A program made the translations under genes and the position numbers. A stretch of 32,691 nucleotides of DNA from Sedimenticola thiotaurini (GTDB taxonomy: Bacteria > Pseudomonadota > Gammaproteobacteria > Chromatiales > Chromatiaceae): positions 1 through 32,691 of the forward strand of contig DRKP01000041.1 of the NCBI GenBank assembly GCA_011051715.1. The letters run 5' to 3'. The first letter of the stretch is position 1. Each line of letters starts with the position of its first letter. Positions 4,664-32,495 of the stretch are shown piece after piece. The notes beneath the pieces were generated by a model. The model made no database searches. It was not told the DNA's origin and worked only from the letters and a program-made list of their open reading frames with translations.

Positions 4664-4685
4664 CCCCTCACCCCTCACCACCCTC

Positions 4686-4691
4686 TATACT
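4686..4691 (+). promoter_or_regulatory. TATACT -10-like element 6 bases before a start codon
   Basis: TATACT ends 6 bases before the ATG at 4698. The expected transcription start falls on the A of that ATG, and no Shine-Dalgarno sequence lies between them. This fits a leaderless mRNA. No convincing -35 hexamer is present at the usual distance. The same arrangement occurs at 8070-8075 (minus) and 21283-21288. Confidence 0.35.
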
Positions 4692-4697
4692 CCCCCC

Positions 4698-6065: not shown

Positions 6066-6081
6066 ACCCGTCCGGACCGGA

Positions 6082-8061: not shown

Positions 8062-8069
8062 CAAAGGTC

Positions 8070-8075
8070 AGTATA
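8070..8075 (-). promoter_or_regulatory. TATACT -10-like element before the chemoreceptor start
   Basis: On the minus strand TATACT is followed by 8 bases and then the GTG at 8061, with no ribosome binding site between. The predicted mRNA start is within about two bases of that GTG. The remaining 95 bases to the end of trkH show no gene and no clear terminator. Confidence 0.35.
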
Positions 8076-8180
8076 AGTTCGGAATCACTTCCCTGTGGCC
8101 AGGCAACCATGATGTGGATTCCCAGCGCTCGCGGGGGTTAGCGGCTTAGGACGGGAGTTCTTGAGGCGGCAGCAGCGGTG

Positions 8181-9635: not shown

Positions 9636-9654
9636 GGCCGTCGTCCGCGCCGGT

Positions 9655-11031: not shown

Positions 11032-11062
11032 GGCTGCTTCCGGGTTGTTCCGCTGCGCGGGA

Positions 11063-11091
11063 AGTGTAGCGCGTTCCCCGGCGGGAGGCAG
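11063..11091 (-). promoter_or_regulatory. Weak candidate promoter for trkAH
   Basis: On the minus strand CTGCCT (11091-11086), a 17-base spacer and TACACT (11068-11063) lie 31 bases before trkA. The -10 element is good and the -35 is poor (3 of 6). The position in the only sizeable gap of this gene block makes a promoter plausible. Confidence 0.25.
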
Positions 11092-11123
11092 CGTTTTTTA
11101 GGGCCCTGGGACAAGACCCGGAA

Positions 11124-11165
11124 ACCTGGAACCTAGTACCTAGTACCTAGAACCTAGTACCTTGA
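11124..11165. repeat. Heptamer tandem repeat, six copies of ACCTNGW
   Basis: Six contiguous 7-base units read ACCTGGA, ACCTAGT, ACCTAGT, ACCTAGA, ACCTAGT and ACCTTGA. They begin at 11124 and end two bases before the ntrX stop codon. Read in frame, the units contain TAG stops, so they cannot be coding on the plus strand. The period is unrelated to codon length. I see no other copy in the window. Confidence 0.85.
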
Positions 11166-11166
11166 C

Positions 11167-12537
11167 TCACCGTCCCTGCCCCTTGATCTCGATCCCCAGT
11201 GCGCGCAGCTTGCGGTACAGGTGGGTACGCTCCATCCCCACCTCGGCCGCTGTCTGGCTGACGTTGCCGCCGTGCTTCTCCAGCTGGTACTCCAGATAGG
11301 CCTTCTCGAACTGCTCCCGGGCCTGGCGCAGGGGCTGGTCGAAGGAGACCGGGAAGCCGCCGCCCCCGGCGGGCGGGGCATCCACCTGGCCCAGGGCCGC
11401 CACCACCTCCTCCTGGGTGATGGTCTCGCCGGCGCCGAGGATCATCAGCCGCTGCACCAGGTTCTTCAGCTCGCGGATGTTGCCGTGCCAGGGGTAGTTG
11501 CGCAGATAGTTCTGGGCGCCGACGTCGAAGCGGCGGTAGGGCAGCTTCTCGTGGGTGACGTAGTAGTCGACATAGTAGTTGAGCAGGTCCGGCACGTCCT
11601 CCTTGTGCTCGCGCAGCGGCGGGATCCGCAGCGGTACCACGTTGAGGTGGTAGAACAGGTCCTCGCGGAAGCGGCCCTCCTGCACCTCCTGTTCCAGGTC
11701 ACGCTGGGTGGCGGCGATGATGCGCACGTCGATCTCCACCGGCTCGGTGCCGCCCTCGCGCAGGAAGGAGCCGGTATCCAGCGCCCCCAGCAGCTGGGCC
11801 TGGGCCTCCATGTCCATGTCCGCCACCTCGTCCAGGAACAGGGTGCCACCGCGGGCCTGTTCCAGGGCGCCGTAGTGGATGCGGCCCTCCTCCTCGCTGC
11901 CGAACAGCTCGCGCGCGGCGTTGCCGCGGGTGATGGACGAGACCCCCACCTCGACGAACGGGCGCTCCCGGCGCGGGCTCTGGGCGTGCAGGTAGCGGGC
12001 GAAGGTCTCCCGGCCACTGCCGGGCTCGCCGGTGATCAGCACCCAGGTGTCGTGCTGGGCGATGCGCTTGACCTGCTCCTTCAGCCGCTGGATCACCGCA
12101 CTGCGGCCGGTCGGCTCCACCACCGGCTCGCTGTGCCGGCGCAGGCCGATGTTCTCCATCTGCAGCTTGTCCACCTCCAGCGCCCGCTCCACCGTCAGCA
12201 GCAGCTTGGCCAGCGACAGCGGCTTCTCGAGGAAATCGTAGGCGCCGAGGCGGGTCGCCTCCACCGCCGTCTCCACCGTGCCGTGGCCCGACATCATGAT
12301 CACCGGGCAGGGCAGGCCATCGCCTTCGGACCACTCCTTCAGCAGGCTGATACCGTCCACGTCGGGCATCCAGATGTCCAGCAGGATCAGGTCCGGGCGG
12401 CGCTCGCGCAGGGCCTGGCGTGCCGCCTCCCCGTTCTCCGCCACCACCACCCGGTAATCCTCGTCCTCCAGGATCTCCTTCACCAGCCCGCGGATATCGG
12501 GTTCGTCGTCGACCACCAGGATTCGGGGTGCGCTCAT
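11167..12537 (-). CDS. ntrX: NtrX-type response regulator with degenerate sigma-54 ATPase motifs
   Basis: This 456-residue response regulator is paired with the NtrY kinase encoded just upstream. The receiver domain has DD at 10-11, phosphoacceptor D54 (LLDIWMPDVDG) and K105. The AAA+ region keeps Walker B GTLFLDEV at 231-238, but Walker A reads GEPGSGRE at 170-177, with Arg176 in place of Lys. The GAFTGA loop is absent: the stretch after ELFG is SEEEGRIHYGALEQARG. A Fis-type helix-turn-helix closes the protein (HGGNVSQTAAEVGMERTHLYRKLRALG). The family controls nitrogen or redox-related genes. This one probably does not drive sigma-54 promoters and may act as a DNA-binding regulator instead. 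Its ATG overlaps the ntrY stop by 4 bases. Confidence 0.92.
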   Translation of the reverse strand: MSAPRILVVDDEPDIRGLVKEILEDEDYRVVVAENGEAARQALRERRPDLILLDIWMPDVDGISLLKEWSEGDGLPCPVIMMSGHGTVETAVEATRLGAYDFLEKPLSLAKLLLTVERALEVDKLQMENIGLRRHSEPVVEPTGRSAVIQRLKEQVKRIAQHDTWVLITGEPGSGRETFARYLHAQSPRRERPFVEVGVSSITRGNAARELFGSEEEGRIHYGALEQARGGTLFLDEVADMDMEAQAQLLGALDTGSFLREGGTEPVEIDVRIIAATQRDLEQEVQEGRFREDLFYHLNVVPLRIPPLREHKEDVPDLLNYYVDYYVTHEKLPYRRFDVGAQNYLRNYPWHGNIRELKNLVQRLMILGAGETITQEEVVAALGQVDAPPAGGGGFPVSFDQPLRQAREQFEKAYLEYQLEKHGGNVSQTAAEVGMERTHLYRKLRALGIEIKGQGR

Positions 12538-14759
12538 GCCTGTTTCACTCCTTCAGCAAACTCGATCGGTGGACAGCTCTCCACCGGACTGCCGGTGACG
12601 GCGGGCAGGCGCAGCACGATGCGCCCGCCGCCCTCCTCCCGGTTCTCCGCCCAGACCTGGCCGGCGTGCTCCTCGACGATCTTGCGGACGATGGCCAGCC
12701 CCAGGCCGGTCCCCTTCACCTTGGTGGTTACATAGGGCTCGAACAGGTGGGCCAGCACCTCATCGTCGAAGCCGGGGCCGTTGTCCTCCACCCGCAGCTC
12801 GACGAAGCGGCAGCCACCCTCGTCCACCTCCCGGGTGGCGATCCGGATCAGCGCCCCCTCGGTCTCGGCCAGCGCCTCCTGGGCGTTCTTGATCAGATTG
12901 TGGATGACCTGGCGCAGGCGCACCGGGTCGGCCTCGATCAGGACGTCGGTCCGTGCCAGCTCCACCTCAAGCCGGGGCCGCATGCCGGCGCTGCGGTAGA
13001 GATCGATCACCTCCTGCACCAGGCCGTTGAGGGCCAGGGGTTCCGGACGCAGCTTCGGTGGCCGGGCATAGTCGGAGAAGGCGTTGACCATCTTCTTCAT
13101 CGCCTCCACCTGCTGCACGATGGTGGCGGTGGCCCGTTCCAGCACCCGGGCGTCCTCCGGTGCCATCCGTTTCAGATACTTGCGCCGCAGCCGCTCCGCC
13201 GACAGCTGGATCGGGGTGAGCGGATTCTTGATCTCGTGGGCGAGGCGCCGCGCCACCTCGCCCCAGGCCGCGTCCCGCTGGGCCTTGATCAGGGCGGTGA
13301 TGTCGTCGAACACCAGCACGTAGCCGTCCGGCTGTCCCCCGGGCTGGACCAGGGGCGTCCCCCGGCACAGCAGCACCCGGCGGCCGTCGCCGCCATGCAG
13401 GGTCAGCTCCGCGCGCCAGGGGCGGCGCTCCTCGCCGATGGCGTCGTCCACCGCGGCCAGGAACTGGCGCAGCAGCGGCCCGGCCTGTTCCATCTCCTCC
13501 CCCTGGTGCCCGAGGTAGTCCTGCACGTCCACCCGCAGGATCTCCAGCGCCGCCTCGTTGGCGGTCTGGATCCGCCCATCCGCATCCAGTGCCATCACCC
13601 CGGAGGAGAGGCTGCCCAGCACCGTCTCCAGATAGCTGCGCTGGGCCTCCACCTGCTGCTTGCTGCGCGCCGCCTCGTCCCGCGCCTGGGCGATGCGGCG
13701 GGTCATCTCGTTGAAGGAGGCCACCAGGAACCCCAGCTCGTCCCGCCGCCGTGGCTCCGGCAGCTGCATGTCGTAGTCGCCCTGGGCCACCGCCCGGGTG
13801 CCTTCGGCGATGTCGGTGATCGGTGCCACCAGCCGCCGCGCCAGGTAGAACGCCATCCAGATCGCCGACAGCAGCCCGAACAGCAGCACCAGCGCCAGCG
13901 CCAGGGTGAAGGTCTGCTTCAGGCTCTTGCGCAGGAAGGTCAGCTCCTTGTAGCGGTTGTAGGCGGACTGCACCGTCTCCGACAACTGGCTGATGTTGGC
14001 CGAGGTGGGATACATCGCCTGCAGCAGCATGCCCCGCTTCTCGTCGTTCACCACCACCATCACCTCGAGCAGGGACTCGTCCCCCTGGGTCGGCATCAGG
14101 CCGACGAAATCGACCCCGCCCCGCACCTGCTGCAGGATGGCGGTGTCCAGCCTGGTCGGCACCATCATCACCGTCGGATCGGCGTTGCTGATCACCATCG
14201 GCCGGCCGGCGGGGGTGAGCAGGGCCATCTCGGTGGCACCATACTTGTCCAGCAGCTCCTCCAGGCTGATCGCCAGTCCCGCCACCGAACTGCCGGTGAG
14301 TTCGGTGAGCGCCCGCTGGGTGGTCTTCAGCCGCTCCCGCTTGTGCAGGTCGAGGGAGGCGCGGCTGAGCTCCATGGCGTCCTCCACCGCCTGGTCGATC
14401 TGCACGTCGAACCAGGAGTCGATGCCCTGCATCAGGAACTGCTGCGAGTAGTAGAACACCACCAGCACCGGCGCCAGCGAGATGATGACGAAGATCAGCA
14501 TCATGTGCAGGGTGAGGCGGGAACCCGCCGCCTGCTGGCGGTAGCGGATGATCAGCTGGGCCACGTTGATGCCGATCACGCCCAGCAGCAGCACCAGGCC
14601 GACCAGGCTGGCGATCAGCAGCGGCACGAACAGGCGGTTCAGCTCCTCGGTGTTCTGTACCGCGCTGCTCATCAGGTGCAGCGATGCCAGCACCAGCGCC
14701 AGCAGCACCAGTACCGGCAACGGTCCCCGGCCGAGCCGTTTCAGGGCTGCAGCGTCCAT
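12534..14759 (-). CDS. ntrY: NtrY-type membrane sensor histidine kinase
   Basis: The 741-residue kinase fits the NtrY family. It has two or three N-terminal membrane helices (near 14-32, 42-65 and 84-105), an extracytoplasmic region to about 285 and another membrane helix near 290-312. A HAMP domain follows (LARRLVAPITDIAEGTRAVA), then a PAS domain (about 375-490). The HisKA box is RRLAHEIKNPLTPIQLSAER and carries the phosphorylated His. The ATPase domain has NLIKNAQEAL, DNGPGF and GTGLGLAIV. It should phosphorylate the overlapping NtrX. I place the start at the ATG at 14759, because the frame continues upstream only as non-protein-like sequence inside the DUF4390 and rsmB genes. Its start overlaps the DUF4390 gene by 19 bases. 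Confidence 0.94.
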   Translation of the reverse strand: MDAAALKRLGRGPLPVLVLLALVLASLHLMSSAVQNTEELNRLFVPLLIASLVGLVLLLGVIGINVAQLIIRYRQQAAGSRLTLHMMLIFVIISLAPVLVVFYYSQQFLMQGIDSWFDVQIDQAVEDAMELSRASLDLHKRERLKTTQRALTELTGSSVAGLAISLEELLDKYGATEMALLTPAGRPMVISNADPTVMMVPTRLDTAILQQVRGGVDFVGLMPTQGDESLLEVMVVVNDEKRGMLLQAMYPTSANISQLSETVQSAYNRYKELTFLRKSLKQTFTLALALVLLFGLLSAIWMAFYLARRLVAPITDIAEGTRAVAQGDYDMQLPEPRRRDELGFLVASFNEMTRRIAQARDEAARSKQQVEAQRSYLETVLGSLSSGVMALDADGRIQTANEAALEILRVDVQDYLGHQGEEMEQAGPLLRQFLAAVDDAIGEERRPWRAELTLHGGDGRRVLLCRGTPLVQPGGQPDGYVLVFDDITALIKAQRDAAWGEVARRLAHEIKNPLTPIQLSAERLRRKYLKRMAPEDARVLERATATIVQQVEAMKKMVNAFSDYARPPKLRPEPLALNGLVQEVIDLYRSAGMRPRLEVELARTDVLIEADPVRLRQVIHNLIKNAQEALAETEGALIRIATREVDEGGCRFVELRVEDNGPGFDDEVLAHLFEPYVTTKVKGTGLGLAIVRKIVEEHAGQVWAENREEGGGRIVLRLPAVTGSPVESCPPIEFAEGVKQA

Positions 14760-15334
14760 CGGGTCCACTCGCTGTCGTGCTCCCAGTCCGGATCCAGATA
14801 GGCCCAGGGGCGCAGGGGAAGGGGCAGGTCCTCGATACTGAGACTGGCGCGCAGGGAGAGCTCGTACACCTCGTCCGGCCGCAGCCGGTCCGGCGTGATC
14901 AGGGGCAGCCCGTCGAGCTCGCCCAGGGCCTCGAGGGCGGCGCGCCGGGTGACGAAGTTCTGGCGCCGGCCGGTCTGCAGATCCCGCACCTGGTAGACCG
15001 ACGCCAGGGCATGGTAGCGGATGCGGTAGAACAGCCGCTGCCCGACGATGTCCGGCTCCCACGGCCAGGCATCGCTGCGGCGCAGCCGCAGGTCCACCTC
15101 CAGGGTCAGGGGCACGCCGTTGTTGAGGGCCTCGATGGCCCGTTCCGAGAAGCGGTAGTCGATGCGGGCATCGACCAGGTAGCCGTCGTCGGTCAGGCGC
15201 GTGCCCAGCTCGCGGACGACGAACTCCCCGCCCCAGCCCGCCGCCGGCCAGGCCAGCAGCAGGAGCCAGAGCAGGACGCACCGCTGGCGGCGGGCCGGAT
15301 CAGCCTTTTTCGATGCAGGCATAGTAGAAGCCAT
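14741..15334 (-). CDS. DUF4390 exported protein between rsmB and ntrY
   Basis: The 197-residue protein has a basic N-terminus followed by a hydrophobic segment, CVLLWLLLLAWPAAGWG, that looks like a signal peptide or anchor. The rest suits the DUF4390 family: EFVVRELGTRLTDDGYLVDARIDYRF, then GVPLTLEVDLRL and a C-terminal SLSIEDLPLPLRPWAYLDPDW. The family is regularly found between rsmB and ntrYX and has no known biochemical role; a link to envelope sensing by NtrY is only a guess. I choose ATG at 15334 because of the GGAGAGGGG sequence before it; ATG at 15322 is possible. The gene overlaps the end of rsmB by 35 bases and the start of ntrY by 19. Confidence 0.85.
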   Translation of the reverse strand: MASTMPASKKADPARRQRCVLLWLLLLAWPAAGWGGEFVVRELGTRLTDDGYLVDARIDYRFSERAIEALNNGVPLTLEVDLRLRRSDAWPWEPDIVGQRLFYRIRYHALASVYQVRDLQTGRRQNFVTRRAALEALGELDGLPLITPDRLRPDEVYELSLRASLSIEDLPLPLRPWAYLDPDWEHDSEWTRWTLQP

Positions 15335-16634
15335 CCATTCCCCCCTCTCCGGGCAGGATCTGGCGCCCGCTGCCGCAGGCGTGTCCCCAGTCCGCGGAGA
15401 TGGGCCGTTCACGGGCATCGGGCCGGCGCCGCAGGAAGCTCTCCACCTGCTGCTGGTTCTCCTCCGGCAACAACGAACAGGTGGCATAGAGCAGCCGCCC
15501 CCCCGGTTCCAGCAACGGCCAGACCGCATCCAGGATCCGCGCCTGCAGTTCGGTCAGCGGGCCGATGTCGGAGGCCCGGCGCAGCAGCTTGATGTCCGGG
15601 TGGCGCCGGATCACACCGGTGGCGGAACAGGGCACGTCCAGCAGAATCCGCTGGTAACGGCGCTGTGCCCAGGGACCGGCGGGCCGGGCCGCATCCCCCT
15701 GGCACACCTCCGCCGTCAGGCCCAGCCGTTCCAGGTTCTCGCGGATCCGCTGCAGCCGCGCCGGATCGATCTCCACTGCCGTCACCTCCACCCCGTCGGG
15801 GGCGCTCTCCAGCAGGTGGCCGGTCTTGCCGCCGGGGGCGGCGCAGGCGTCCAGCACCCGCTGGCCCGGCTCCGGCGCCAGCAGGCCGGCCGCCAGCTGG
15901 GCACCACCGTCCTGTACCGATACCAGTCCCTCCCGGAAACCGGGCAGGCGCTCCACCTCCAGCGGCTGATCCAGCACCAGCCCCGAGGGGACGGTGGCAA
16001 TCGGCCGGGCATCGATGCCCTGCTGTTGCAGCCGCTCCAGGAAGGCATCACGGCCGATCCGCCGGAGATTGACCCGCAGGCTCATCGGCGGCTGCCGGTT
16101 GGCTGCCTCCACGACCGCCTGCCACTGCTCCGGCCAGGCCCGCTGCACCGCCTGCAGCAGCCAGGCGGGATGGGCCCAGCGGGCCACCGGGTCCTGCTCC
16201 AGGTCCGCCAGCAGCGCCTCCCGCTCGCGCTGGAAACGGCGCAGCACACCGTTGACCAGGCCGGCGGCCCAGGGCTTGCCCAGGACACGGGCGGCGGCCA
16301 CCGTCCGGTCCAGCGCCGCATGGGGGGCGATGCGCATGTGCTGCAGCTGGTGCAGGCCGAGCAGCAGCAGCGCCTTGACGTCCCGGTCGCGGGACTTCAG
16401 TGGTCGCCGCACCAGGACCCGGTACAGCGCCTCCAGCTGCGGCCACCAGCGCGCCGTGCCATAGCACAGCGCCTTCACCAGGGCCCGGTCGCGCGGCGCC
16501 AGGCCCCGCGGTTCCCCCGCCAGCAGGACGGAGAGGGATTCACCCTGCTGCAGGCGCGCCAGCAACAGGGCAGCGACGGCTCGGGGCTCGACGTCGGTCG
16601 TCCGCTTGCGGGGCGGCGGATGCCGCTCAGCCAA
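15300..16634 (-). CDS. rsmB: 16S rRNA m5C967 methyltransferase
   Basis: RsmB (Sun/Fmu) uses S-adenosylmethionine to methylate C967 of 16S rRNA. Residues up to about 135 form the NusB-like RNA-binding domain ([21 protein letters not shown]). The catalytic domain follows, with the SAM-binding motif [17 protein letters not shown] and the motif [17 protein letters not shown] with its cysteine. The second catalytic cysteine is in [18 protein letters not shown]. The TTG at 16634 gives 444 residues, close to the E. coli protein (429). ATG at 16661 is an alternative that would overlap fmt by 35 bases. With TTG the overlap is 8 bases. The def-fmt-rsmB order is the classic one. Confidence 0.95.
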
Positions 16635-17562
16635 GCACCACCCCCAGTGGATCGTGGGCATTGAGGAACGCCCCCGCCTCCACCGCCTTCTTCCCCGGCA
16701 GCTGCAACTGGCGGATCCGCAGCAGGCCGTCGCCGGTGGCGACGTCGATCCCCTCCCTGCCGGTCGCCACCACCGTACCCGGAGCGGCATCGGCCGCCTG
16801 CTCCAGCGGCTGCGACTGCCACAGCCGCAGCACCTGGTCCCGGTACCTGGTCTGGGCCACCGGCCAGGGGTTGAAGGCCCGCACCTGCCGATCCAGTTCC
16901 AGCGCCGGCCGGCTCCAGTCGATCACCGCCTCCGACTTCTCCAGCTTGTGGGCGTAGCAGGCCAGGCTGTCGTCCTGGGGCTCGGCCCGGAGGGAGCCGT
17001 CGAGGATCCCGGGGAGTGCCTCCATCAGCGCCTCGGCGCCGAGCAGGGAGAGCCGGTCGTGCAGGGACCCCCCGGTCTCGTCGGCAGCGATGGGGATCGC
17101 CTTCTTCAGCAGCATGGGACCGGTATCCAGCCCCTCCTCCATCTCCATGATGGTGATACCGGTCTCACGGTCGCCCGCCAGTACCGCCCGCTGGATCGGC
17201 GCCGCCCCGCGCCAGCGTGGCAGCAGGGAGGCGTGGATGTTGATGCAGCCGCGCGCCGGCGCCTCCAGCACCGCGCGCGGCAGGATCAGGCCATAGGCGA
17301 CCACCACCATCAGATCCGGCTGCAGCCGGCGCAACGCCTCCACCTCCGCCGGGTCGCGAAAGTTCTTCGGTTGCCGGACCGGTACCCCCCGCTCCAGGGC
17401 CAGCTGTTTCACCGGGCCCGGGGTCAGCTTGCGGCCACGGCCGGCGGGGCGGTCCGGCTGGGTATAGACGGCCACCACCCGGTGACCGGCGTCGAGCAGC
17501 GCCCGCAGGGGTGGAACGGAGAAATCCGGCGTGCCGGCGAACAGGATGCGTGGGGCGGACAT
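16627..17562 (-). CDS. fmt: Methionyl-tRNA formyltransferase
   Basis: Fmt formylates the initiator Met-tRNA using 10-formyl-tetrahydrofolate. The 311-residue length is standard. The catalytic residues match E. coli spacing: N108 and H110 in [18 protein letters not shown], and D146 in EGLDTGPM. The N-terminus [15 protein letters not shown] is typical. It begins 4 bases after the def stop codon and ends inside the start of rsmB, which suggests translational coupling. Confidence 0.97.
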
Positions 17563-23622: not shown

Positions 23623-24504
23623 TCACTCCTTCAGCCGGCGGAACCGCCCGGTGCGGTCGAAGATCCGTTCCAGCTCGTTCATCCGCTCCGATGCGCCGTC
23701 CCACAGGCGGCTCTCGACGGCGGTGACCAGGGCCTCGATCAGGAACAGGGTGGCGACGCCGGAGTCCCACCCCGACGCCGCCTCGGTGTGCACCGGGAAA
23801 CTGTGCCCGGCGTACTCCGCGATCGGCGACAGCCACTGATCGGTGAACAGCACCACCTCCACCCCCTTGTCGGCCGCCACCCGCGCCAGTCCCTGCAGAT
23901 CCAGCTCGTAGCGACGCACGTCGAACACCAGCAGCACGTCGTCGGCGGCCATGTCCAGCAGATGGTGCGGCCACAGTCCGGCCGACGCCGGCAGCTGGCG
24001 CACGCCGCGCCGGATCACCTCCAGGTGGGTGGCCAGGTAGTCGGAGAAGGCGTGGGTGATGCGCCCCCCCACCAGGTGCACGGCGCGCCCGGGATCGCAC
24101 AGCAGCTCCACCACCTGGTTGAAGCTGTCGTAACTGATGTGGTTCATGGTATCGCGCAGATTGGCCACCACCGCCTCCGCCGCCCGGTTGAGGACGTGTT
24201 CACGGGGGGTGCCGGTGGCCCACAGTCCGTGCTTGGCGATGGGATCCGACAGGGTCTCGGCCAGCTCCTGCTTCAGCGCCTTCTGAAAGCGGGTGAAGCT
24301 GGTGAAGCCGATGCGTCCCAGGGTGCGCATCACCGTCGGTGTCGATACCTGGCAGGCGGCGGACAGCTCGGTGATCGAGGTGAGCCCCGCCATCGGATAG
24401 TTGCCGAGCAGATGGTTGGCGATCTTGCGCTCGGCCGGCTTGAATTCGTTGAAATGGGCCCGGATCAGATCCGCGATCGTGGGCCCGGATTCGCCCTGAT
24501 CCAT
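23623..24504 (-). CDS. MurR/RpiR-family transcriptional regulator
   Basis: The 293-residue protein has an N-terminal RpiR-type helix-turn-helix (residues about 8-80: FKPAERKIANHLLGNYP, then SITELSAACQVSTPTVMRTLGRIGFTSFTRF). A C-terminal SIS domain (about 125-260) includes AVHLVGGRITHAFSDYLATHL and VLLVFDVRRYELDLQGLARVAADKGVEVVLFTD. SIS domains usually bind sugar phosphates, but RpiR proteins in this context often sense other metabolites. It diverges from the TRAP/gamma-glutamyl operon and is its likely local regulator. Two adjacent ATGs exist; I prefer 24504 because it sits 5 bases after GGAGG, with 24507 also possible. Confidence 0.92.
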   Translation of the reverse strand: MDQGESGPTIADLIRAHFNEFKPAERKIANHLLGNYPMAGLTSITELSAACQVSTPTVMRTLGRIGFTSFTRFQKALKQELAETLSDPIAKHGLWATGTPREHVLNRAAEAVVANLRDTMNHISYDSFNQVVELLCDPGRAVHLVGGRITHAFSDYLATHLEVIRRGVRQLPASAGLWPHHLLDMAADDVLLVFDVRRYELDLQGLARVAADKGVEVVLFTDQWLSPIAEYAGHSFPVHTEAASGWDSGVATLFLIEALVTAVESRLWDGASERMNELERIFDRTGRFRRLKE

Positions 24505-24646
24505 CATACCCTCCCGTGTTGGCCGGAAACCCGGACCTGGTGACCCCTGCCCCGCCCCGGCGCTCCGGTCCAGCCGCGGCGCCGGCGGCCGTTCAGGGCC
24601 TCGCCAGCGGCCCGGCCGCCTTCGAGCGCCCCCATAGATAAAAATA

Positions 24647-24674
24647 TTGACAGCATAAATTTATGATGTAAAGT
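24647..24674 (+). promoter_or_regulatory. Predicted promoter of the TRAP/gamma-glutamyl operon
   Basis: A perfect TTGACA (24647-24652), a 16-base spacer and TAAAGT (24669-24674, 4 of 6) lie in a sharply AT-rich island inside a GC-rich 320-base gap. Transcription would start near 24681, leaving a leader of about 147 bases before dctP. The rest of the gap (24508-24640 and 24690-24827) is GC-rich and shows no gene. Confidence 0.5.
24654..24665. promoter_or_regulatory. 12-bp palindrome in the promoter spacer
   Basis: CATAAATTTATG is a perfect palindrome between the -35 and -10 elements of the operon promoter. It could be a second regulator half-site or simply AT-rich promoter DNA. Confidence 0.35.
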
Positions 24675-24682
24675 TTTTTACA
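24667..24682. promoter_or_regulatory. Likely RpiR-type operator
   Basis: TGTAAA-GTTT-TTTACA is a perfect 6-bp inverted repeat with a 4-base centre. It covers the -10 element and the predicted start of the operon promoter, so a bound protein would block transcription. The divergent RpiR-family gene is the obvious candidate to bind it. That link is inference. Confidence 0.5.
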
Positions 24683-24827: not shown

Positions 24828-25880
24828 ATGAGCAGTCGCCGCACATTTCTCAAGCAGGCTGGAGTGGGGGCCGCCGCCGCGGCCGTCTCGATCGGGGCGC
24901 CGGCGGTACACGCCGCCAAGAAGACCACCATCAAGTGGCGCATGCAGACCTATGCCGGCCCGGCACTGGCCGAATACGTGATCAAGCCGTCGATCCAGGC
25001 CTTCAACAAGGCCGCCAACGGCGAGATGAAGATCGAACTCTATTTCTCCGATCAGCTGGTCCCGACCGGAGAGCTGTTCCGGGCGATGCAGCGCGGCACC
25101 ATCGACGCGGTACAGAGCGACGACGATTCCATGTCGTCACCGGTGGACATCGCCGTGTTCGGCGGCTATTTCCCGTTCGCCACCCGCTACAGCCTGGACG
25201 TGCCGACCCTGTTCCACCGCTATGGACTGAACGAGATCTGGAAGGAGGCCTACGACGAGGTTGAGGGCGTCACCTGGCTCAGCGCCGGCTCCTGGGATCC
25301 CTGCAATTTCGCCACCAAGAAGCCGATCCGCAAGCTGGCCGATCTGAAGGGCCTGCGTGTCTTCACCTTCCCCACCGCCGGCAAGTTCCTGTCCCGCTTC
25401 GGCGTGGTGCCGGTGACCCTGCCATGGGAGGACATCGAGGTGGCGGTACAGACCGGCGAACTGGACGGCATCGCCTGGTCCGGCATCACCGAGGACTACA
25501 CCGTCGGCTGGGCCGATGTGACCAACTACTTCCTCACCAACAACATCTCCGGTGCCTGGATCGGCTCCTACTTCGCCAACTCCGACGCCTGGGCCAAGGT
25601 GCCGGAACACCTGAAGACCCTGTTCAAGCTGTGCATGGACAGCTCCCACTACCATCGTCAGTACTGGTACTGGGGCGGTGAGGCGGCGCTGCGCACCACC
25701 GGGACCAAGCTGAAGCTGACCACCATCCCGGACGAGGAGTGGAAGACGGTGGAGCAGGAGGCGTTCAAGTTCTGGGACGAGATCGCCGCCATCAGTCCGC
25801 GCACCGCCAAGGTGGTGAAGATCATCAAGGAGTACAACGCCACCATGGAGAAGGCCGGCACACCCTATCGTTGCGGCTGA
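24828..25880 (+). CDS. dctP: TRAP transporter substrate-binding protein, Tat signal
   Basis: This 350-residue periplasmic binding protein of a TRAP transporter captures the substrate for DctQM. The N-terminus has a twin-arginine signal (SRRTFLKQ, then an Ala-rich stretch to VHA at about 29), so it is probably exported folded. Family features include QLVPTGELFRAMQRGTIDAVQ (77-96) and LPWEDIEVAVQTGELDGI (198-215). Where most relatives have the carboxylate-binding Arg (the GLKIR position), this protein has Phe179 in KGLRVFTFP. With abundant Asp, Trp and Tyr nearby, this suggests an amine or other non-carboxylate ligand; ethanolamine is my guess. The start has a strong AGGAGGAG site. It is first in a seven-gene operon. 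Confidence 0.94.
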   Translation: MSSRRTFLKQAGVGAAAAAVSIGAPAVHAAKKTTIKWRMQTYAGPALAEYVIKPSIQAFNKAANGEMKIELYFSDQLVPTGELFRAMQRGTIDAVQSDDDSMSSPVDIAVFGGYFPFATRYSLDVPTLFHRYGLNEIWKEAYDEVEGVTWLSAGSWDPCNFATKKPIRKLADLKGLRVFTFPTAGKFLSRFGVVPVTLPWEDIEVAVQTGELDGIAWSGITEDYTVGWADVTNYFLTNNISGAWIGSYFANSDAWAKVPEHLKTLFKLCMDSSHYHRQYWYWGGEAALRTTGTKLKLTTIPDEEWKTVEQEAFKFWDEIAAISPRTAKVVKIIKEYNATMEKAGTPYRCG

Positions 25881-25886
25881 ACCGGA

Positions 25887-25919
25887 CGGCGGGCCGCCCG
25901 GTCTGCGGGCGGCCCGCCG
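25887..25919 (+). other. 14-bp GC hairpin between dctP and dctQ
   Basis: The arms 25887-25900 and 25906-25919 are perfectly complementary over 14 all-GC base pairs around a GTCTG loop. There is no T-run after it. In transporter operons such hairpins often protect the 3' end of the binding-protein message, or reduce read-through, so that more binding protein than membrane subunit is made. Confidence 0.7.
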
Positions 25920-25951
25920 GCTCACACTGAACCGACAGGGGGGAGTGGACC

Positions 25952-26464
25952 TTGCCTGCTGCCATCCGCGCCTATGTGCGCTGGGTCGACGCCATCAACC
26001 GTACGGTGGGGCGCGCCACCATGTACCTGATCTTCATGATGATGGGGATGCTGCTCTACTCCGCCATCTCCCGTACCTTCCTCGACACCCCCATCTCCTG
26101 GGTGGTGGAGATGTCCCAGTTCACCATGGCCGCCTATTACCTGCTGGGTGGCGGCTACTCGATGCAGAACGACGCCCACGTGCGCATGGATCTGCTGTAC
26201 GAGCGCTGGCCGAAGCGAACCCGCGCCTTCGTCGACTCGATCACCGCCTTCGCCCTGATCTTCTACCTGGTGATGCTGTTCTACGGCGGTATCTCCAGCT
26301 CCTCCTATGCGTTGCAGTACGGTCAGCGCAACTACTCCGCCTGGGCGCCGCTGATGGCACCGATCAAGATCATCATGAGCGTCGGCATCTTCCTGATGCT
26401 GCTGCAGGCGATCGCCATCTTCTTCCGTGACCTGGCCACGGTGCGCGGAAAGAGCCTGTCATGA
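25952..26464 (+). CDS. dctQ: TRAP transporter small membrane subunit
   Basis: The 170-residue protein has the four-helix DctQ fold. Helices lie near 24-42, 52-72 (ISWVVEMSQFTMAAYYLLGGGYSM), 94-116 and 135-158. The motif HVRMDLLYERWPKR between helices is typical of the family. It helps DctM couple sodium entry to uptake in the inner membrane. Translation begins at a TTG at 25952, supported by GGGGGGAG 7 bases upstream; no upstream ATG fits better. Its stop overlaps the dctM start by 4 bases, implying translational coupling. Confidence 0.9.
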   Translation: MPAAIRAYVRWVDAINRTVGRATMYLIFMMMGMLLYSAISRTFLDTPISWVVEMSQFTMAAYYLLGGGYSMQNDAHVRMDLLYERWPKRTRAFVDSITAFALIFYLVMLFYGGISSSSYALQYGQRNYSAWAPLMAPIKIIMSVGIFLMLLQAIAIFFRDLATVRGKSLS

Positions 26465-27783
26465 GCTACGAGATGATCGCGCTGCTGATGTTCAGCAGCA
26501 TGATGCTGATGCTGCTCACCGGCCAGCGCGTGTTCGGCGCCATCGGTTTCGTCGCCACCGCCGCCGCCCTGCTGCTGTGGGGGGACGGCGGTTCCGAGAT
26601 GGCCTTCAACGCCAGCATCAAGCTGATGAACTGGTACCCCCTGCTGACCCTGCCCCTGTTCATCTACATGGGCTACATGCTGTCCGAGTCCGGCATCGCC
26701 AGCGATCTCTATCACATGCTCCACGTCTGGATGGGGCCGCTGCGCGGTGGCCTGGCCATCGGCACCATCGTGCTGATGGTGGCGATCTCGGCCATGAACG
26801 GCCTCAGCGTGGCCGGCATGGCGATCGGCAGCAGCATCGCCCTGCCGGAGATGCTCAAGCGCAACTACGACAAGCGCATGGTCACCGGCGTGATCCAGGC
26901 CGGCAGCTCCCTCGGCATCCTGGTGCCGCCGAGCATCGTGCTGATCCTGTACGGCATGATCGCGCGCCAGCCTGTGAGCCAGCTGTGGCTGGCCGGGGTG
27001 ATGCCGGGCCTGCTGCTGGCGACCCTGTTCATCCTCTACATCCTGATCCGCTGCCGCATGCAGCCAGAGCTGGGGCCACCGCTGGCGGAGCACGAGCGTC
27101 AGCTGAGCTGGCGCGAGAAGATCGCCCTGCTCAATGCCGGCGTGCTGTCGCTGGTGATCATCTTCGCCGTCATCGGCCTGTTCGTGATGGGGGTCACCAG
27201 CCTGGTGGAGAGCTCCGCCGTCGGCGCAGCCGCCGCCACCGTGGCCGCCTGGTCCAAGGGCCGGCTCAACCGCCAGGTGATCGACACCATCCTGCGCCGC
27301 ACCCTCGACATCAGCGCCATGTTCATGTGGATCATCCTCGCCGCCCTCTGTTTCGGCGCCGTGTTCGACGGCCTCGGCGCGGTGAAGGCGATCGAGTCCC
27401 TGTTCCTGGAGAAGTGGGGCCTGACGCCGTGGGAGGTGCTGATCCTGATGCAGATCACCTACATCGTCATGGGCATGTTCCTGGACGACACCGCCATGCT
27501 GGTGATCGTGGCGCCCCTCTACATCCCGTTGGTCAAGGCCCTCGGCTTCAACCCGATCTGGTACGGCGTGCTCTACACCATCACCTGCCAGATCGCCTAC
27601 ATGACGCCGCCGTTCGGCTACAACCTGTTCCTGATGAAGGCGATGGCGCCGAAGGAGATCACCCTCGGCGACATCTACCACTCCATCTTCCCGTTCGTCC
27701 TGGTGATGATCTTCGGCCTCGCCATGGTGACCGCCTTCCCGCAGATCGCCATGTGGCTGCCGGAGGCGGTCTACGCCAGATGA
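26461..27783 (+). CDS. dctM: TRAP transporter large permease subunit
   Basis: DctM is the sodium-driven translocating subunit. The 440-residue product has the expected run of hydrophobic helices and family stretches such as PLFIYMGYMLSESGIA, IQAGSSLGILVPPSIVLILYG and MTPPFGYNLFLMKAMAP. It is a separate chain, not fused to DctQ. It overlaps dctQ by 4 bases and ends 22 bases before the ligase gene, so transporter and enzymes are one transcript. The coupling ion is assumed from the family. Confidence 0.95.
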   Translation: MSYEMIALLMFSSMMLMLLTGQRVFGAIGFVATAAALLLWGDGGSEMAFNASIKLMNWYPLLTLPLFIYMGYMLSESGIASDLYHMLHVWMGPLRGGLAIGTIVLMVAISAMNGLSVAGMAIGSSIALPEMLKRNYDKRMVTGVIQAGSSLGILVPPSIVLILYGMIARQPVSQLWLAGVMPGLLLATLFILYILIRCRMQPELGPPLAEHERQLSWREKIALLNAGVLSLVIIFAVIGLFVMGVTSLVESSAVGAAAATVAAWSKGRLNRQVIDTILRRTLDISAMFMWIILAALCFGAVFDGLGAVKAIESLFLEKWGLTPWEVLILMQITYIVMGMFLDDTAMLVIVAPLYIPLVKALGFNPIWYGVLYTITCQIAYMTPPFGYNLFLMKAMAPKEITLGDIYHSIFPFVLVMIFGLAMVTAFPQIAMWLPEAVYAR

Positions 27784-27805
27784 CCATCTTGCAAGGAGAC
27801 CCGCC

Positions 27806-29176
27806 ATGCAACCGAGAGAAGTAGAGAGCGCAGCCGATGCCCGCGCCATCGTCGAGGAGCGCGGCCTCAGTCACGTCAAGGTGGGACTGTTCGACAACGA
27901 TGGCGTGATGCGCGGCAAGTACATGAGCCGGGAGAAGTTCTTCTCCTCCCTGGAGCATGGCTTTGCGTTCTGCGACGTGGTCCTGGGGTGGGACAGCAAG
28001 GACCAGCTCTACGACAACGTCCGCTACACCGGCTGGCACACAGGCTATCCCGACGCCCCCGTCCGGATCCTGCCGCAGAGCTGCCGCGAGGTGCCGTTCG
28101 AGGAGGGCATGCTGCTGTTCCTGGCCGAATTCGCCGGGCCCGCCGAGGCGGTCTGCCCCCGCGCCGCCCTGCGCCGGGTGCTGCAGCGGGCGGAGGCACT
28201 GGGCTTCCTGCCGATGGCGGCCCTGGAGTACGAGTTCTTCCTGTTCGACGAGACCCCGGACAGCGTGCGCGAGAAGGGCTTCCGCGATCTCCAGCCCATG
28301 ACCCCGGGCTGGTTCGGCTACTCCATGCTGCGCAACTCGGTCCACGCCGAGCTCTACCACGAGCTGCTGGAGCTGTGCGAGACCATGGACTTCCCGCTGG
28401 AGGGGATCCACACCGAGACCGGCCCGGGGGTGGTGGAGGCGGCGATCGCCGTCGACCGGGCCGGAGAGGCCGCCGACAAGGCGGCCCTGTTCAAGACCTT
28501 CACCAAGGTGCTGGCCCAGCGCAACGGCCTGATGGCCACCTTCATGGCCAAGTGGTCGCCCGACTACCCGGGTCAGAGCGGCCACATCCACCTCTCCCTG
28601 CGCAGCGCCGACGGTGCCACCTCCGCCTTCCACGACCCCGACGGCCCGTTCAACATGAGCGAGATCCAGCGCCGCTTCATCGCCGGCCAGCAGCGGCTGA
28701 TGCCGCAACTGCTGGCGCTGCTGGCGCCGACGGTGAACAGCTACACCCGCCTGATCCCCGGCTTCTGGGCCCCCACCGACGCCACCTGGGGCGTCGAGAA
28801 CCGAACCACTGCCCTGCGCGTGATCCCGGGCTCGGACAAGTCCCAACGGGTGGAATACCGCCTCGGCTCGGCCGATGCCAACCCCTATCTGGCACTGGCC
28901 GCCGCCCTCGGCGCCGGTCTCTATGGCATCGAGCAGGGCTGGGAGCCGACGCCGCGGGTGGAGGGCAACGCCTACCAGCAGCAGCACCCGCCGGAACTGG
29001 CCCTGCCGCGCACCCTGTGGGACGCGGCCCAGGCGCTGAAGCAGTCGACGGCGGCGCGGGAGCTGCTGGGCGACGCCTTCGTCGAGCACTTCGCCGCCTC
29101 CCGCGAGTGGGAGGAGCGGGAGTTCCGCCGCCACATCACCGACTGGGAGCTGGAACGCTACTTCGAGATCATCTGA
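27806..29176 (+). CDS. Glutamine-synthetase-like gamma-glutamyl-amine ligase
   Basis: The 456-residue enzyme belongs to the glutamine synthetase superfamily and probably joins glutamate to an amine using ATP. Active-site elements are present: E141/E143 in LEYEFFLFD, E204 and E211 in HTETGPGVVEAAI, H260/H262 in GQSGHIHLSL, NRT with R338 (332-338), and E350/R352 in RVEYRLGS. It is not housekeeping GlnA: the adenylylation-site region (NLYDLP in GlnA) reads NAYQQQHPP, and it sits in a catabolic operon. PuuA, IpuC and GlnA4-type ligases are the closest functional models. With an alcohol and an aldehyde dehydrogenase downstream, the amine is probably an amino alcohol such as ethanolamine. AAGGAGA precedes the ATG. 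Confidence 0.9.
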   Translation: MQPREVESAADARAIVEERGLSHVKVGLFDNDGVMRGKYMSREKFFSSLEHGFAFCDVVLGWDSKDQLYDNVRYTGWHTGYPDAPVRILPQSCREVPFEEGMLLFLAEFAGPAEAVCPRAALRRVLQRAEALGFLPMAALEYEFFLFDETPDSVREKGFRDLQPMTPGWFGYSMLRNSVHAELYHELLELCETMDFPLEGIHTETGPGVVEAAIAVDRAGEAADKAALFKTFTKVLAQRNGLMATFMAKWSPDYPGQSGHIHLSLRSADGATSAFHDPDGPFNMSEIQRRFIAGQQRLMPQLLALLAPTVNSYTRLIPGFWAPTDATWGVENRTTALRVIPGSDKSQRVEYRLGSADANPYLALAAALGAGLYGIEQGWEPTPRVEGNAYQQQHPPELALPRTLWDAAQALKQSTAARELLGDAFVEHFAASREWEEREFRRHITDWELERYFEII

Positions 29177-29214
29177 CCCCGGAACCACCGTTCAACCACA
29201 CCCGAGACGCATCC

Positions 29215-30606
29215 ATGAGTGAATCACTGACCACCATCAGCCCCGTCGACGGCTCCGTCTACGTGGAGCGCCCCTGGGCCACTCCCGCGCGCATCGACGC
29301 CGCCCTCGATCTGGCCCGCGACGCCCGCCGCGCCTGGCGCGACACCCCCCTGCAGGAGCGCCAGGCGATCTGCAGCCGCATGGTAGACGCCTTCGTCGCC
29401 CACCGCGACGGCATCGCCGCGGAGATCTGCTGGCAGATGGGACGCCCGATCCGTTTCGCCGGTGGCGAGGTCAACGGCCTGGAGGAGCGGGCCCGCACCA
29501 TGATCCGCCTCGCCGACGAGGGGCTGGCACCGGTACGACCGCCGCAGAAGGAGGGATTCCGGCGCTGGATCCAGCGCGAACCGGTGGGAACGGTGTTCGT
29601 CATCGCCCCCTGGAACTACCCCTACCTCACCGCCATCAACGCGGTGATGCCCGCCATCCTGGCCGGCAACGCGGTGGTGCTGAAGCACTCCGCCCAGACC
29701 CCCCTCTGCGCCGAGCGGCTGCAGCAGGCGTTCGACCAGGCGGGGCTGCCGGAGGGGGTGTTCCAGTACCTGCACCTGACCCATGCCGACACCGAGCAGG
29801 TGATCCGCGACGGCCGCGTCGACCATGTCGCCTTCACCGGCTCGGTGCCCGGTGGCCGCATGGTGGAACGGGTGGCCGCCGGACGCTTCATCGGCGTCGG
29901 CCTGGAGCTGGGCGGCAAGGATCCGGCCTACATCCGCGCCGATGCCGACCTGGAGCAGGCGGTGGAGACCGCCCTGGACGGCGCCTTCTTCAACTCCGGC
30001 CAGTCCTGCTGCGGCATCGAACGCATCTACGTCCACCAGTCGGTCTACGACCGTTTTCTGGAGCAGGCGGTGGCCTGGGTCGCGGCGCTGAAACTGGGGC
30101 GCCCGGACGACCCCGACACCACCCTGGGCCCGGTGGTGCGCGCCGCCGCCGCCGATTTCGTACGCGGCCAGGTGGACGAGGCCCTGGCCGCGGGGGCGGT
30201 CGCCCACATCGACCCGGCCGACTATCCCCTGGACCGGCCCGGCTCACCCTACCTGGCGCCCCAGCTCCTCACCGGCGTCGACCACTCCATGCGGGTGATG
30301 ACCGAGGAGAGCTTCGGCCCCGTGGTCGGTGTGCAGAAGGTGGCCTCGGACGAGGAGGCGGTGGCGCTGATGAACGACAGCGTCTACGGTCTCACCGCCG
30401 CCCTGTTCACCCGCGACTACGACCGCGGCATCGAGCTCGGCCAGCGGCTGGAGGCAGGCACCTTCTTCATCAACCGCTGCGACTACCTGGACCCGGAACT
30501 GGCCTGGACCGGGGTCAAGGAGTCCGGCCGCGGCTGCACCCTGTCGGTGCTGGGCTTCGAGGCCTTCACCCGACCCAAGTCGTTCCACATCAAGACGGCC
30601 ATCTGA
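29215..30606 (+). CDS. NAD(P)-dependent aldehyde dehydrogenase
   Basis: The 463-residue protein is an ALDH superfamily enzyme. Cofactor-binding and catalytic parts are visible: PWNYPYLTAINAVMPAILAGNAVVLKHSAQTP (132-163), FTGSVPGG (207-214), the general base E231 in ELGGKDP and catalytic C265 in NSGQSCCGIER. In the proposed pathway it oxidises a gamma-glutamylated amino aldehyde to the acid, like PuuC in the putrescine route. The ATG at 29215 lies 38 bases after the ligase gene. The frame is open further upstream, but that part lies inside the ligase gene and reads as non-protein. Substrate specificity cannot be read from the sequence. Confidence 0.93.
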   Translation: MSESLTTISPVDGSVYVERPWATPARIDAALDLARDARRAWRDTPLQERQAICSRMVDAFVAHRDGIAAEICWQMGRPIRFAGGEVNGLEERARTMIRLADEGLAPVRPPQKEGFRRWIQREPVGTVFVIAPWNYPYLTAINAVMPAILAGNAVVLKHSAQTPLCAERLQQAFDQAGLPEGVFQYLHLTHADTEQVIRDGRVDHVAFTGSVPGGRMVERVAAGRFIGVGLELGGKDPAYIRADADLEQAVETALDGAFFNSGQSCCGIERIYVHQSVYDRFLEQAVAWVAALKLGRPDDPDTTLGPVVRAAAADFVRGQVDEALAAGAVAHIDPADYPLDRPGSPYLAPQLLTGVDHSMRVMTEESFGPVVGVQKVASDEEAVALMNDSVYGLTAALFTRDYDRGIELGQRLEAGTFFINRCDYLDPELAWTGVKESGRGCTLSVLGFEAFTRPKSFHIKTAI

Positions 30607-30624
30607 CCCGGAGGAGAGAACGCA

Positions 30625-31785
30625 GTGACCCTGACCGCCAACTGGAACTATCCCACGTCCATCCGCGTCGGTGCCGGCCGCGTCGCCGAACTGCCCGACG
30701 CCTGCCGCGAACTGGGCATCGGGACGCCCCTGCTGGTGACCGATCCCGGCCTCGCCGGCCTGCCGCTGATGCGGCGGGTGCTGGAGACCCTGCAGCGGAC
30801 GGGGCTGCAGACCGAACTCTTCTCCGCCATCAAGGCCAACCCCAATGGTGACAACGTGGCCGCCGGCGTCGCCGCCTTCCACCGGGCCGGCTGCGACGGG
30901 GTGATCGCCTGCGGCGGTGGCTCCGCCCTGGACGCGGCCAAGGCGGTGGCGCTGATGGTGGGCCAGCAGCGGCCACTGTGGGACTTCGAGGACCTGGGCG
31001 ACAACTGGACGCGGGTGAACGAGGAGGGGATGGCGCCGGTGGTGGCGCTCCCCACCACCGCCGGTACCGGTTCCGAGGTGGGACGGGCGTCGGTGATCAC
31101 CGACCAGGACGACCGGCGCAAGAAGATCATCTTCCACCCGCGAATGCTGCCGGAGCGGGTGATCCTGGATCCGGAGCTGACCCTGGGGCTGCCACCGGAT
31201 CTCACCGCCGCCACCGGCATGGACGCCCTCTCCCACAGCCTGGAGGCGTTCTGCGCCCCCTCCTACCACCCCATGGCCGAAGGCATCGCGGTGGAGGGAA
31301 TCCGGCTGGTGCAGCAGTTCCTGCCGCGGGCGGTGGCCGACGGCAGCGACCTCGAGGCGCGCACCCAGATGCTGGTGGCATCGGCCATGGGCGCCACCGC
31401 CTTCCAGCGCGGCCTGGGCGGGATGCACGCCCTGGCCCACCCGCTGGGCGCCCTTTACGACGCCCACCACGGCACCCTCAACGCCATCCTGATGCCCTAT
31501 GTGCTGCAGGCCAACAGGGACGCCATCGGGGAACGCATCGATCATCTCGCCCAGTGCATGGATCTGCCCGGAAGCGGCTACGACGCCTTTCTGGAATGGG
31601 TGCTCGCCCTGCGTGAGCTGCTGTCGATCCCCCACACCCTCGCGGAAATCGGCATCGACGACAGCCACGCCGACCGCATCGGTGCGATGGCGGCGGCCGA
31701 CCCCTCCGCCGGGGGCAACCCGGTGGACCTGGGCAGTGACGGATACCGGTCCCTGTTCCTGCGCGCCGTGGCCGGCGAGGTATAG
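30625..31785 (+). CDS. Iron-containing (group III) alcohol dehydrogenase
   Basis: The 386-residue protein is a group III, iron-activated alcohol dehydrogenase. The NAD-binding region includes GVIACGGGSALDAAKAV (92-108) and PTTAGTGSEV (143-152). The metal ligands align with E. coli FucO: D200 and H204 (TGMDALSH), H268 (GGMHALAHPLGA) and H282 (DAHHGTLNAILMP). In the operon it would oxidise the hydroxyl of a gamma-glutamylated amino alcohol to the aldehyde. The start is a GTG at 30625 with a strong GGAGGAGAG site upstream; the gap from the aldehyde dehydrogenase is 18 bases. Confidence 0.93.
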   Translation: MTLTANWNYPTSIRVGAGRVAELPDACRELGIGTPLLVTDPGLAGLPLMRRVLETLQRTGLQTELFSAIKANPNGDNVAAGVAAFHRAGCDGVIACGGGSALDAAKAVALMVGQQRPLWDFEDLGDNWTRVNEEGMAPVVALPTTAGTGSEVGRASVITDQDDRRKKIIFHPRMLPERVILDPELTLGLPPDLTAATGMDALSHSLEAFCAPSYHPMAEGIAVEGIRLVQQFLPRAVADGSDLEARTQMLVASAMGATAFQRGLGGMHALAHPLGALYDAHHGTLNAILMPYVLQANRDAIGERIDHLAQCMDLPGSGYDAFLEWVLALRELLSIPHTLAEIGIDDSHADRIGAMAAADPSAGGNPVDLGSDGYRSLFLRAVAGEV

Positions 31786-31790
31786 CGCCG

Positions 31791-32495
31791 GTGCGCGGCG
31801 CCATTCTCCAGTGCGACGAGGTCATGGAGCAGCTGCAACCGCGCTTCGGCCGCTACGGGGAGATGATCCGGCGCCTGTTCGCCGGCAGCGGCGAAACCAT
31901 CGGCTTCGACGAGTTCGATTGCCGCCAGGGGGAGTATCCGGCCGAGCCGGGCGACTACGACTTCTTCGTCACCACCGGCAGCCAGGCCTCGGCCTACGAT
32001 CCCGAGCCCTGGATCCTGCGCCTGATCGAATTCGTCCGTCACCTGGATGCCGGCGGCCATGTCCTGCTCGGCATCTGCTTCGGCCACCAGATCATCGCCA
32101 TGGCCGGACACGGGCGGGTGGAACGCTCCGCCAGGGGCTGGGGCATCGGTGTCGCCCGCAACCGGATCCTGGCGACGCCGGAGTGGCTGGATCCGGTGCC
32201 CGCGGAACTGGAGATGCTGGTGAGTCACCAGGACCAGGTGGTGGCGACCAGCGGTGATCCGCTGGTGATCGCCGGCAGCGACTTCTGCCCCCTGTTCATG
32301 GTGCAGTGGAACCACCACTTCCTCAGCGTCCAGGGCCACCCCGAGTGGGATGCCGGCTACGCCCGCGCCCTGATCGGGGAGCGTCGCCACCTGCTGCCGA
32401 CGGAGCGGGTGGAGGCGGCGCTCCGCTCCCTGCAGCAGCCCCCGGACAACACCCTGTTCGCCCACTGGGCGCTGCGCTTCATCCGCTCCCGCTGA
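31791..32495 (+). CDS. Class I glutamine amidotransferase-like gamma-glutamyl hydrolase
   Basis: The 234-residue protein is a stand-alone class I glutamine amidotransferase domain. It has the catalytic triad C96 (LLGICFGHQ), H183 and E185 (QGHPEWD). No synthetase domain is attached, so it is not GuaA or CarA. PuuD and related enzymes use this fold to cleave gamma-glutamyl amides. The natural role here would be the last step, releasing glutamate and the product amino acid. It starts with GTG at 31791, 5 bases after the alcohol dehydrogenase stop, with GAGG about 10 bases upstream. It is the last gene of the operon. Confidence 0.88.
   Translation: MRGAILQCDEVMEQLQPRFGRYGEMIRRLFAGSGETIGFDEFDCRQGEYPAEPGDYDFFVTTGSQASAYDPEPWILRLIEFVRHLDAGGHVLLGICFGHQIIAMAGHGRVERSARGWGIGVARNRILATPEWLDPVPAELEMLVSHQDQVVATSGDPLVIAGSDFCPLFMVQWNHHFLSVQGHPEWDAGYARALIGERRHLLPTERVEAALRSLQQPPDNTLFAHWALRFIRSR

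Follow-up and report, generated by a model that had tools for sequence, protein, structure and literature searches.

What is a tripartite ATP-independent periplasmic (TRAP) transporter doing in one operon with a glutamine synthetase (GS)-like ligase, two dehydrogenases and a stand-alone class I glutamine amidotransferase (GATase) in Sedimenticola thiotaurini? The operon occupies positions 24828–32495 of a 32,691 nt stretch of contig DRKP01000041.1 (assembly GCA_011051715.1), hereafter the window, to which all coordinates refer. We hold with high confidence that it serves the catabolism of ethanolamine by gamma-glutamylation, according to the scheme of the Eto operon of Phaeobacter and its counterpart in Chromohalobacter salexigens, with a ligase of another clade and a non-homologous hydrolase. 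It consists of seven intact open reading frames (ORFs), all on the + strand and separated in order by 71, −4, 22, 38, 18, and 5 bases, with a divergent RpiR gene upstream; every family of the operon scores far above its Pfam cut-off except the GATase (32.7 bits, cut-off 22.8). An earlier note on this DNA had listed such a one-strand set (dctPQM, GS-like ligase, aldehyde dehydrogenase [ALDH], iron-containing alcohol dehydrogenase [ADH], and class I amidotransferase, with gaps of 5–71 bases and an overlap), and the ORFs and Pfam matches agree with it. The arrangement is not due to chance, because it recurs gene for gene in two other loci (L016 and L017) and because the ligase-ALDH-ADH-GATase series stands behind the same transporter, with LysR replacing RpiR, in 25 loci that are mostly from Halomonadaceae.

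Receptor, enzymes and predicted reaction series

The substrate is best approached through the solute-binding protein DctP (24828–25880, +), which carries a twin-arginine translocation (Tat) signal and is predicted to be an ethanolamine receptor of the EtoX/Csal_0678 type. Its best solved relative is 4uab/4xf5 (545.7 bits; the runner-up structure reaches 71 bits), which we take to be the Csal_0678 receptor of C. salexigens. When DctP is aligned to a TakP-type receptor, Phe179 occupies the site of the Arg that binds carboxylate in TRAP receptors, and an FTFP motif surrounds this Phe in 105 of 114 non-redundant relatives. DctP is ~70% identical to Csal_0678, a protein that binds ethanolamine and is without the Arg used by TRAP receptors for carboxylates (PMC4646407). 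Ethanolamine, which the earlier note had favored, is thus supported as the predicted substrate of the operon by the kinship of DctP to Csal_0678 and by the absent carboxylate Arg. The small permease DctQ (25952–26464, +; TTG start; Pfam DctQ, 82.7 bits) and the large permease DctM (26461–27783, +; Pfam DctM, 234.6 bits) complete the transporter. One relative's genome encodes a DctP 100% identical to the 4uab sequence and a ligase almost identical to 5dm3, so that this genome belongs to C. salexigens or a very close relative; DctM is 72% identical to its counterpart in this C. salexigens-like operon.

The ligase (27806–29176, +; Pfam Gln-synt_C, 329 bits) belongs to an IpuC-like type that we designate GS-B, as distinct from the type of the C. 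salexigens-like operon (GS-A), and is a predicted gamma-glutamylethanolamide synthetase. Alignment to E. coli GlnA indicates that its metal, glutamate and ATP residues are retained (E141, E143, E204, E211, H260, E350, R315, R338, and R352). The ammonium-site acid of GlnA, E327, is replaced by W321, which argues against ammonium as a substrate; GS-A has Phe at this position and PauA7 has W296 (PMC6529630). The generic annotations GS, GATase and DctPQM would suit a true glutamine synthetase and a glutamine amidotransferase for nitrogen assimilation, lying beside an unrelated dicarboxylate transporter. This is made most unlikely by the Trp in place of E327, by a score of 207 bits against the GlnA model (cut-off 429), by a separate GS-family gene elsewhere in the host genome that reaches 469 bits, by the loss of the carboxylate Arg from the receptor and by the resemblance of the GATase, described below, to a gamma-glutamyl peptidase and not to a synthase subunit.

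Both dehydrogenases keep their catalytic or metal-binding residues and are related to those of the C. salexigens-like operon. The ALDH (29215–30606, +; Pfam Aldedh, 415 bits), a predicted gamma-glutamyl-aminoacetaldehyde dehydrogenase, conserves the catalytic Cys265 and Glu231 and is 53% identical to its counterpart there. The iron ADH (30625–31785, +; GTG start; Pfam Fe-ADH), a predicted gamma-glutamylethanolamide dehydrogenase, is 56% identical, and its metal ligands D200, H204, H268, and H282 are invariant across 82 aligned rows.

The last gene (31791–32495, +; GTG start) encodes a class I GATase-fold hydrolase that is nearest by sequence to gamma-glutamyl peptidase 1. Its AlphaFold model, built on an alignment with rows from genome loci only, has a mean confidence (pLDDT) of 92.4 and superimposes on gamma-glutamyl peptidase 1 with a Z score of 32.5 and a root-mean-square deviation of 1.7 Å over 232 residues; the next family reaches a Z score of 25.1. 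All 35 aligned rows keep the triad C96-H183-E185. From this modeled fold and the triad, the enzyme is predicted to cleave gamma-glutamyl bonds, and to act here as a gamma-glutamylglycine hydrolase. The retained ligase residues, with W321, and the likeness of the final enzyme to gamma-glutamyl peptidase 1 together support the gamma-glutamylation route that had been proposed for the operon. A GS-like ligase, an ALDH and a gamma-glutamyl hydrolase are found also in the Puu pathway, which invites the alternative that the operon degrades polyamines; we consider this highly improbable, as the operon contains no gamma-glutamylputrescine oxidase of the PuuB type, an iron ADH suits an alcohol and not an amine, the ligase scores 196 bits against the gamma-glutamylputrescine synthetase model (cut-off 650) and the TRAP receptor belongs with those for ethanolamine.

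From gene content and catalytic residues we infer the following series for ethanolamine. The DctPQM transporter would import ethanolamine, which the ligase would join to glutamate at the expense of ATP, forming gamma-glutamylethanolamide; the iron ADH would oxidize the alcohol of this compound to the aldehyde and the ALDH would convert the aldehyde to gamma-glutamylglycine, from which the GATase-fold peptidase would release glycine and return the glutamate.

Two enzyme cassettes behind one transporter

The window ligase is 33% identical to the C. salexigens-like GS-A and 41% identical to the annotated IpuC of Paenarthrobacter aurescens TC1. In a tree of GS-family proteins, a branch marked 99* separates the GS-A rows from the rest, the window ligase included; because the reference branches (EcGlnA, EcPuuA, and IpuC) are long, we make no claim as to the precise sister of GS-B. 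The two ligase types keep different company. Among 114 non-redundant loci carrying this DctP, GS-A is paired 38 times with a hydrolase of the N-formylglutamate-amidohydrolase type (FGase) and never with GATase, whereas GS-B is paired 29 times with GATase and once with FGase (L094); FGase and GATase never share a locus. Besides L094, the other exception to this pairing is L119, in which an intermediate ligase accompanies GATase. These counts are not frequencies, since many Halomonadaceae loci were selected deliberately and loci related to one another are not independent observations.

In a quick DctP tree with Shimodaira-Hasegawa-like approximate likelihood ratio test (SH-aLRT) support only, the ligase type switches at least six times, or four times if starred branches alone are counted, so that one enzyme cassette has taken the place of the other while the transporter stayed. 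Most simply, both enzyme sets serve one function with this transporter and have been exchanged repeatedly. It is rather likely that GS-B and the GATase-fold peptidase constitute an independently recruited, IpuC-like cassette for amine glutamylation, which on four or more occasions took the place of GS-A and FGase, or gave way to them, while the ethanolamine TRAP transporter was kept.

Several points weigh against ethanolamine catabolism by this cassette. GS-B resembles the isopropylamine ligase IpuC more closely than it does GS-A, the ligase known for ethanolamine; 4xf5 is the Csal_0678 receptor with L-alaninol, and the receptor may not be exclusive to ethanolamine; the alignment of the ligase with E. 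coli GlnA is ambiguous at the D50 and Y179 columns; no measured activity was found for any enzyme of the GS-B cassette; and the contig stops 196 bases past the final stop codon of the operon, so that an extra downstream gene is possible. The first two of these points also favor a different small amino alcohol (L-alaninol or isopropanolamine) as the main substrate, which would be converted by the same chemistry to gamma-glutamylalanine or a similar product, with ethanolamine secondary; the IpuC route runs via gamma-glutamyl-alaninol. We judge this improbable. The receptor is common to the GS-A operons, the kind that responds to phosphoethanolamine; the window operon has none of the oxygenase genes (P450 and ferredoxin type) seen near ipuC on pTC1 of P. 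aurescens TC1; and the repeated exchange of cassettes behind one receptor argues for one substrate.

Copies of the cassette occur also on plasmids. On the Legionella lytica plasmid pLlyPCM2298_1 (L157:6998-11645) a four-gene ligase-ALDH-ADH-GATase unit stands without a TRAP transporter, and its last gene is annotated as GMP synthase; the Burkholderia vietnamiensis G4 plasmid pBVIE01 (L158:4325-10883) carries RpiR, a Na+/solute symporter, a GS-B-like ligase (58%), ALDH, and GATase near IS66/IS3. The cassette thus looks portable.

A gene of the GGACT family (gamma-glutamyl(amine) cyclotransferase, PF06094) is present in 11 of the 29 GS-B + GATase loci and in none of the GS-A + FGase loci, and its product may be a second means of breaking gamma-glutamyl amides. 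It lies directly 3′ of the GATase gene in the two nearest relatives (L016:17603-18067, +; L017:17676-18095, +), and a relative lies upstream, adjoining LysR, in 9 Halomonadaceae-type GS-B loci. The PF06094 gene of the host genome (contig C121, 40.9 bits) was not tied to the operon, its neighbors looking like housekeeping genes by inspection.

In some loci (L019, L025, L027, L033, L080, L083, and L095) the ethanolamine-type DctP is accompanied by DctQ and DctM and no ligase is present within 9 kb; in L080, L083, and L095 the gene after the transporter encodes a flavoprotein oxidoreductase of 600 aa (Pfam scan of the L080 copy). EutBC was sought near DctP in ligase-free loci (L019, L027, L080, and others) by ORF starts and one Pfam scan, and no consistent partner was found.

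Regulation, host genome and significance

The divergent gene upstream (23623–24507, −) encodes an RpiR-family transcriptional regulator (Pfam HTH_6 and SIS) and is kept beside the operon in relatives. Between it and dctP lies a predicted σ70 promoter, TTGACA-N16-TAAAGT (24647–24674, +; consensus scan, 10/12 matches), the second hexamer of which is overlapped by a predicted RpiR operator, the 16-base palindrome TGTAAAGTTTTTTACA (24667–24682); this position fits the expectation for a repressor site. The palindrome is the sole TGTAA-N6-TTACA in the window. Of 47 distinct RpiR/operon intergenic regions, 24 carry a looser form of this motif, where dinucleotide shuffles would lead one to expect 0.36. 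One-mismatch forms of the operator stand at the corresponding place in L016 and L017, where the promoter layout is similar. The RpiR protein, bound at the operator over the promoter, probably represses the operon until an inducer is present. The conserved operator offers a handle for finding further members of the regulon.

Catabolism by the ethanolamine ammonia-lyase of the Eut system was ruled out: EutB (PF06751) has no match in the host genome, given as 99.99% complete, which fits the earlier note's proposal of a route without the cobalamin lyase. FGase (PF05013) is likewise absent from the host genome. Fragments of the dsrA family are found at four contig ends (C16, C52, C139, and C179), which suggests two partial dsrA copies or split assemblies; these fragments fit the earlier note's view that the host is a sulfur oxidizer, probably of the Dsr type. 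Among 194 genomes sampled from the host's family, only that of the host gave a DctP match, and among 369 drawn from across the class 13 did, host included, a rarity indicating that the operon was probably acquired. In G+C content the operon (0.676) is no different from the remainder of the window (0.677), so that either the transfer is old or the donor had a similar composition. Farther upstream (4449–17562) are genes for σ54 response regulators, a sensor kinase, TrkA/TrkH and rsmB/fmt, an ordinary chromosomal context.

Ethanolamine is a major product of membrane-lipid breakdown, and scavenging of membrane lipids by the host is plausible. If our interpretation is true, nature has found two distinct sets of enzymes for the opening and closing steps of ethanolamine catabolism by glutamylation, the route extends to many Halomonadaceae and one probable sulfur oxidizer, and surveys keyed to GS-A or FGase would miss much of it. 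The usual annotations (glutamine synthetase; GMP synthase or glutamine amidotransferase) hide the pathway, and recognition of the second enzyme set permits correct naming. The loci also provide a natural case of two unrelated hydrolases swapped within the same operon.

Comparison with known systems

The pathway itself is already known: it was predicted for C. salexigens, has proteomic and binding-assay support in Phaeobacter and has been described in Streptomyces. The earlier note had its outline right and missed the difference of ligase and hydrolase from the known operons, as well as RpiR and its operator. No description of the GS-B + GATase variant was found in the literature searched, which did not include key work of 2015–2016, and priority is not claimed.

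The operon shares with E. coli Puu the logic of glutamylation, oxidation and deglutamylation, and a hydrolase (PuuD), but Puu has the amine oxidase PuuB and the symporter PuuP and no iron ADH. Arabidopsis gamma-glutamyl peptidase 1 (GGP1; 9k7i), a plant enzyme of glutathione-conjugate processing, shares the fold and Cys-His-Glu triad of the window GATase at 28% identity but does not belong to an amine operon. The Ipu genes of pTC1 supply the closest ligase found with a specific amine annotation and have putative glutamine amidotransferases and dehydrogenases nearby; they differ in the presence of the P450 and ferredoxin genes and, in the stretch read, contain no TRAP transporter or iron ADH.

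GlnA4 of Streptomyces coelicolor makes gamma-glutamylethanolamide, which was proposed to be oxidized to gamma-glutamylglycine and then split by an FGase-family enzyme to free the glycine (PMC6529630). Compared by description, its cluster resembles the window operon in the gamma-glutamylethanolamide synthetase, the ALDH, the lack of a microcompartment and a glutamine amidotransferase named in the cluster figure legend (PMC6529630), but has a short-chain dehydrogenase in place of the iron ADH and a permease in place of the TRAP transporter, and its last step is given to the FGase-family protein.

The closest likeness is to the Eto and C. salexigens operons. In Phaeobacter sp. MED193 the operon runs RpiR-GGAH-EtoVWX-ETAGA-GAADDH-GETADH and its proteins rose on phosphoethanolamine; EtoX binds ethanolamine with a dissociation constant (Kd) of 7.9 μM, and transporters of its type are reported to be widespread in the ocean, with high expression (PMC10132767). 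The Phaeobacter counterpart of FGase belongs to PF05013. Common to these operons and the window are RpiR, a TRAP transporter with a closely related receptor, a GS-like ligase, ALDH, iron ADH, a final hydrolase and the proposed reaction series. The order differs, RpiR being followed by FGase-DctQ-DctM-DctP-GS-A-ALDH-ADH in the C. salexigens-like operon as opposed to DctP-DctQ-DctM-GS-ALDH-ADH-GATase in the window, and so do the enzymes at the two ends of the pathway: the ligase is GS-A (ETAGA, 5dm3) in the known operons and GS-B in the window, and the hydrolase is an FGase in the former and a non-homologous GATase-fold peptidase in the latter.

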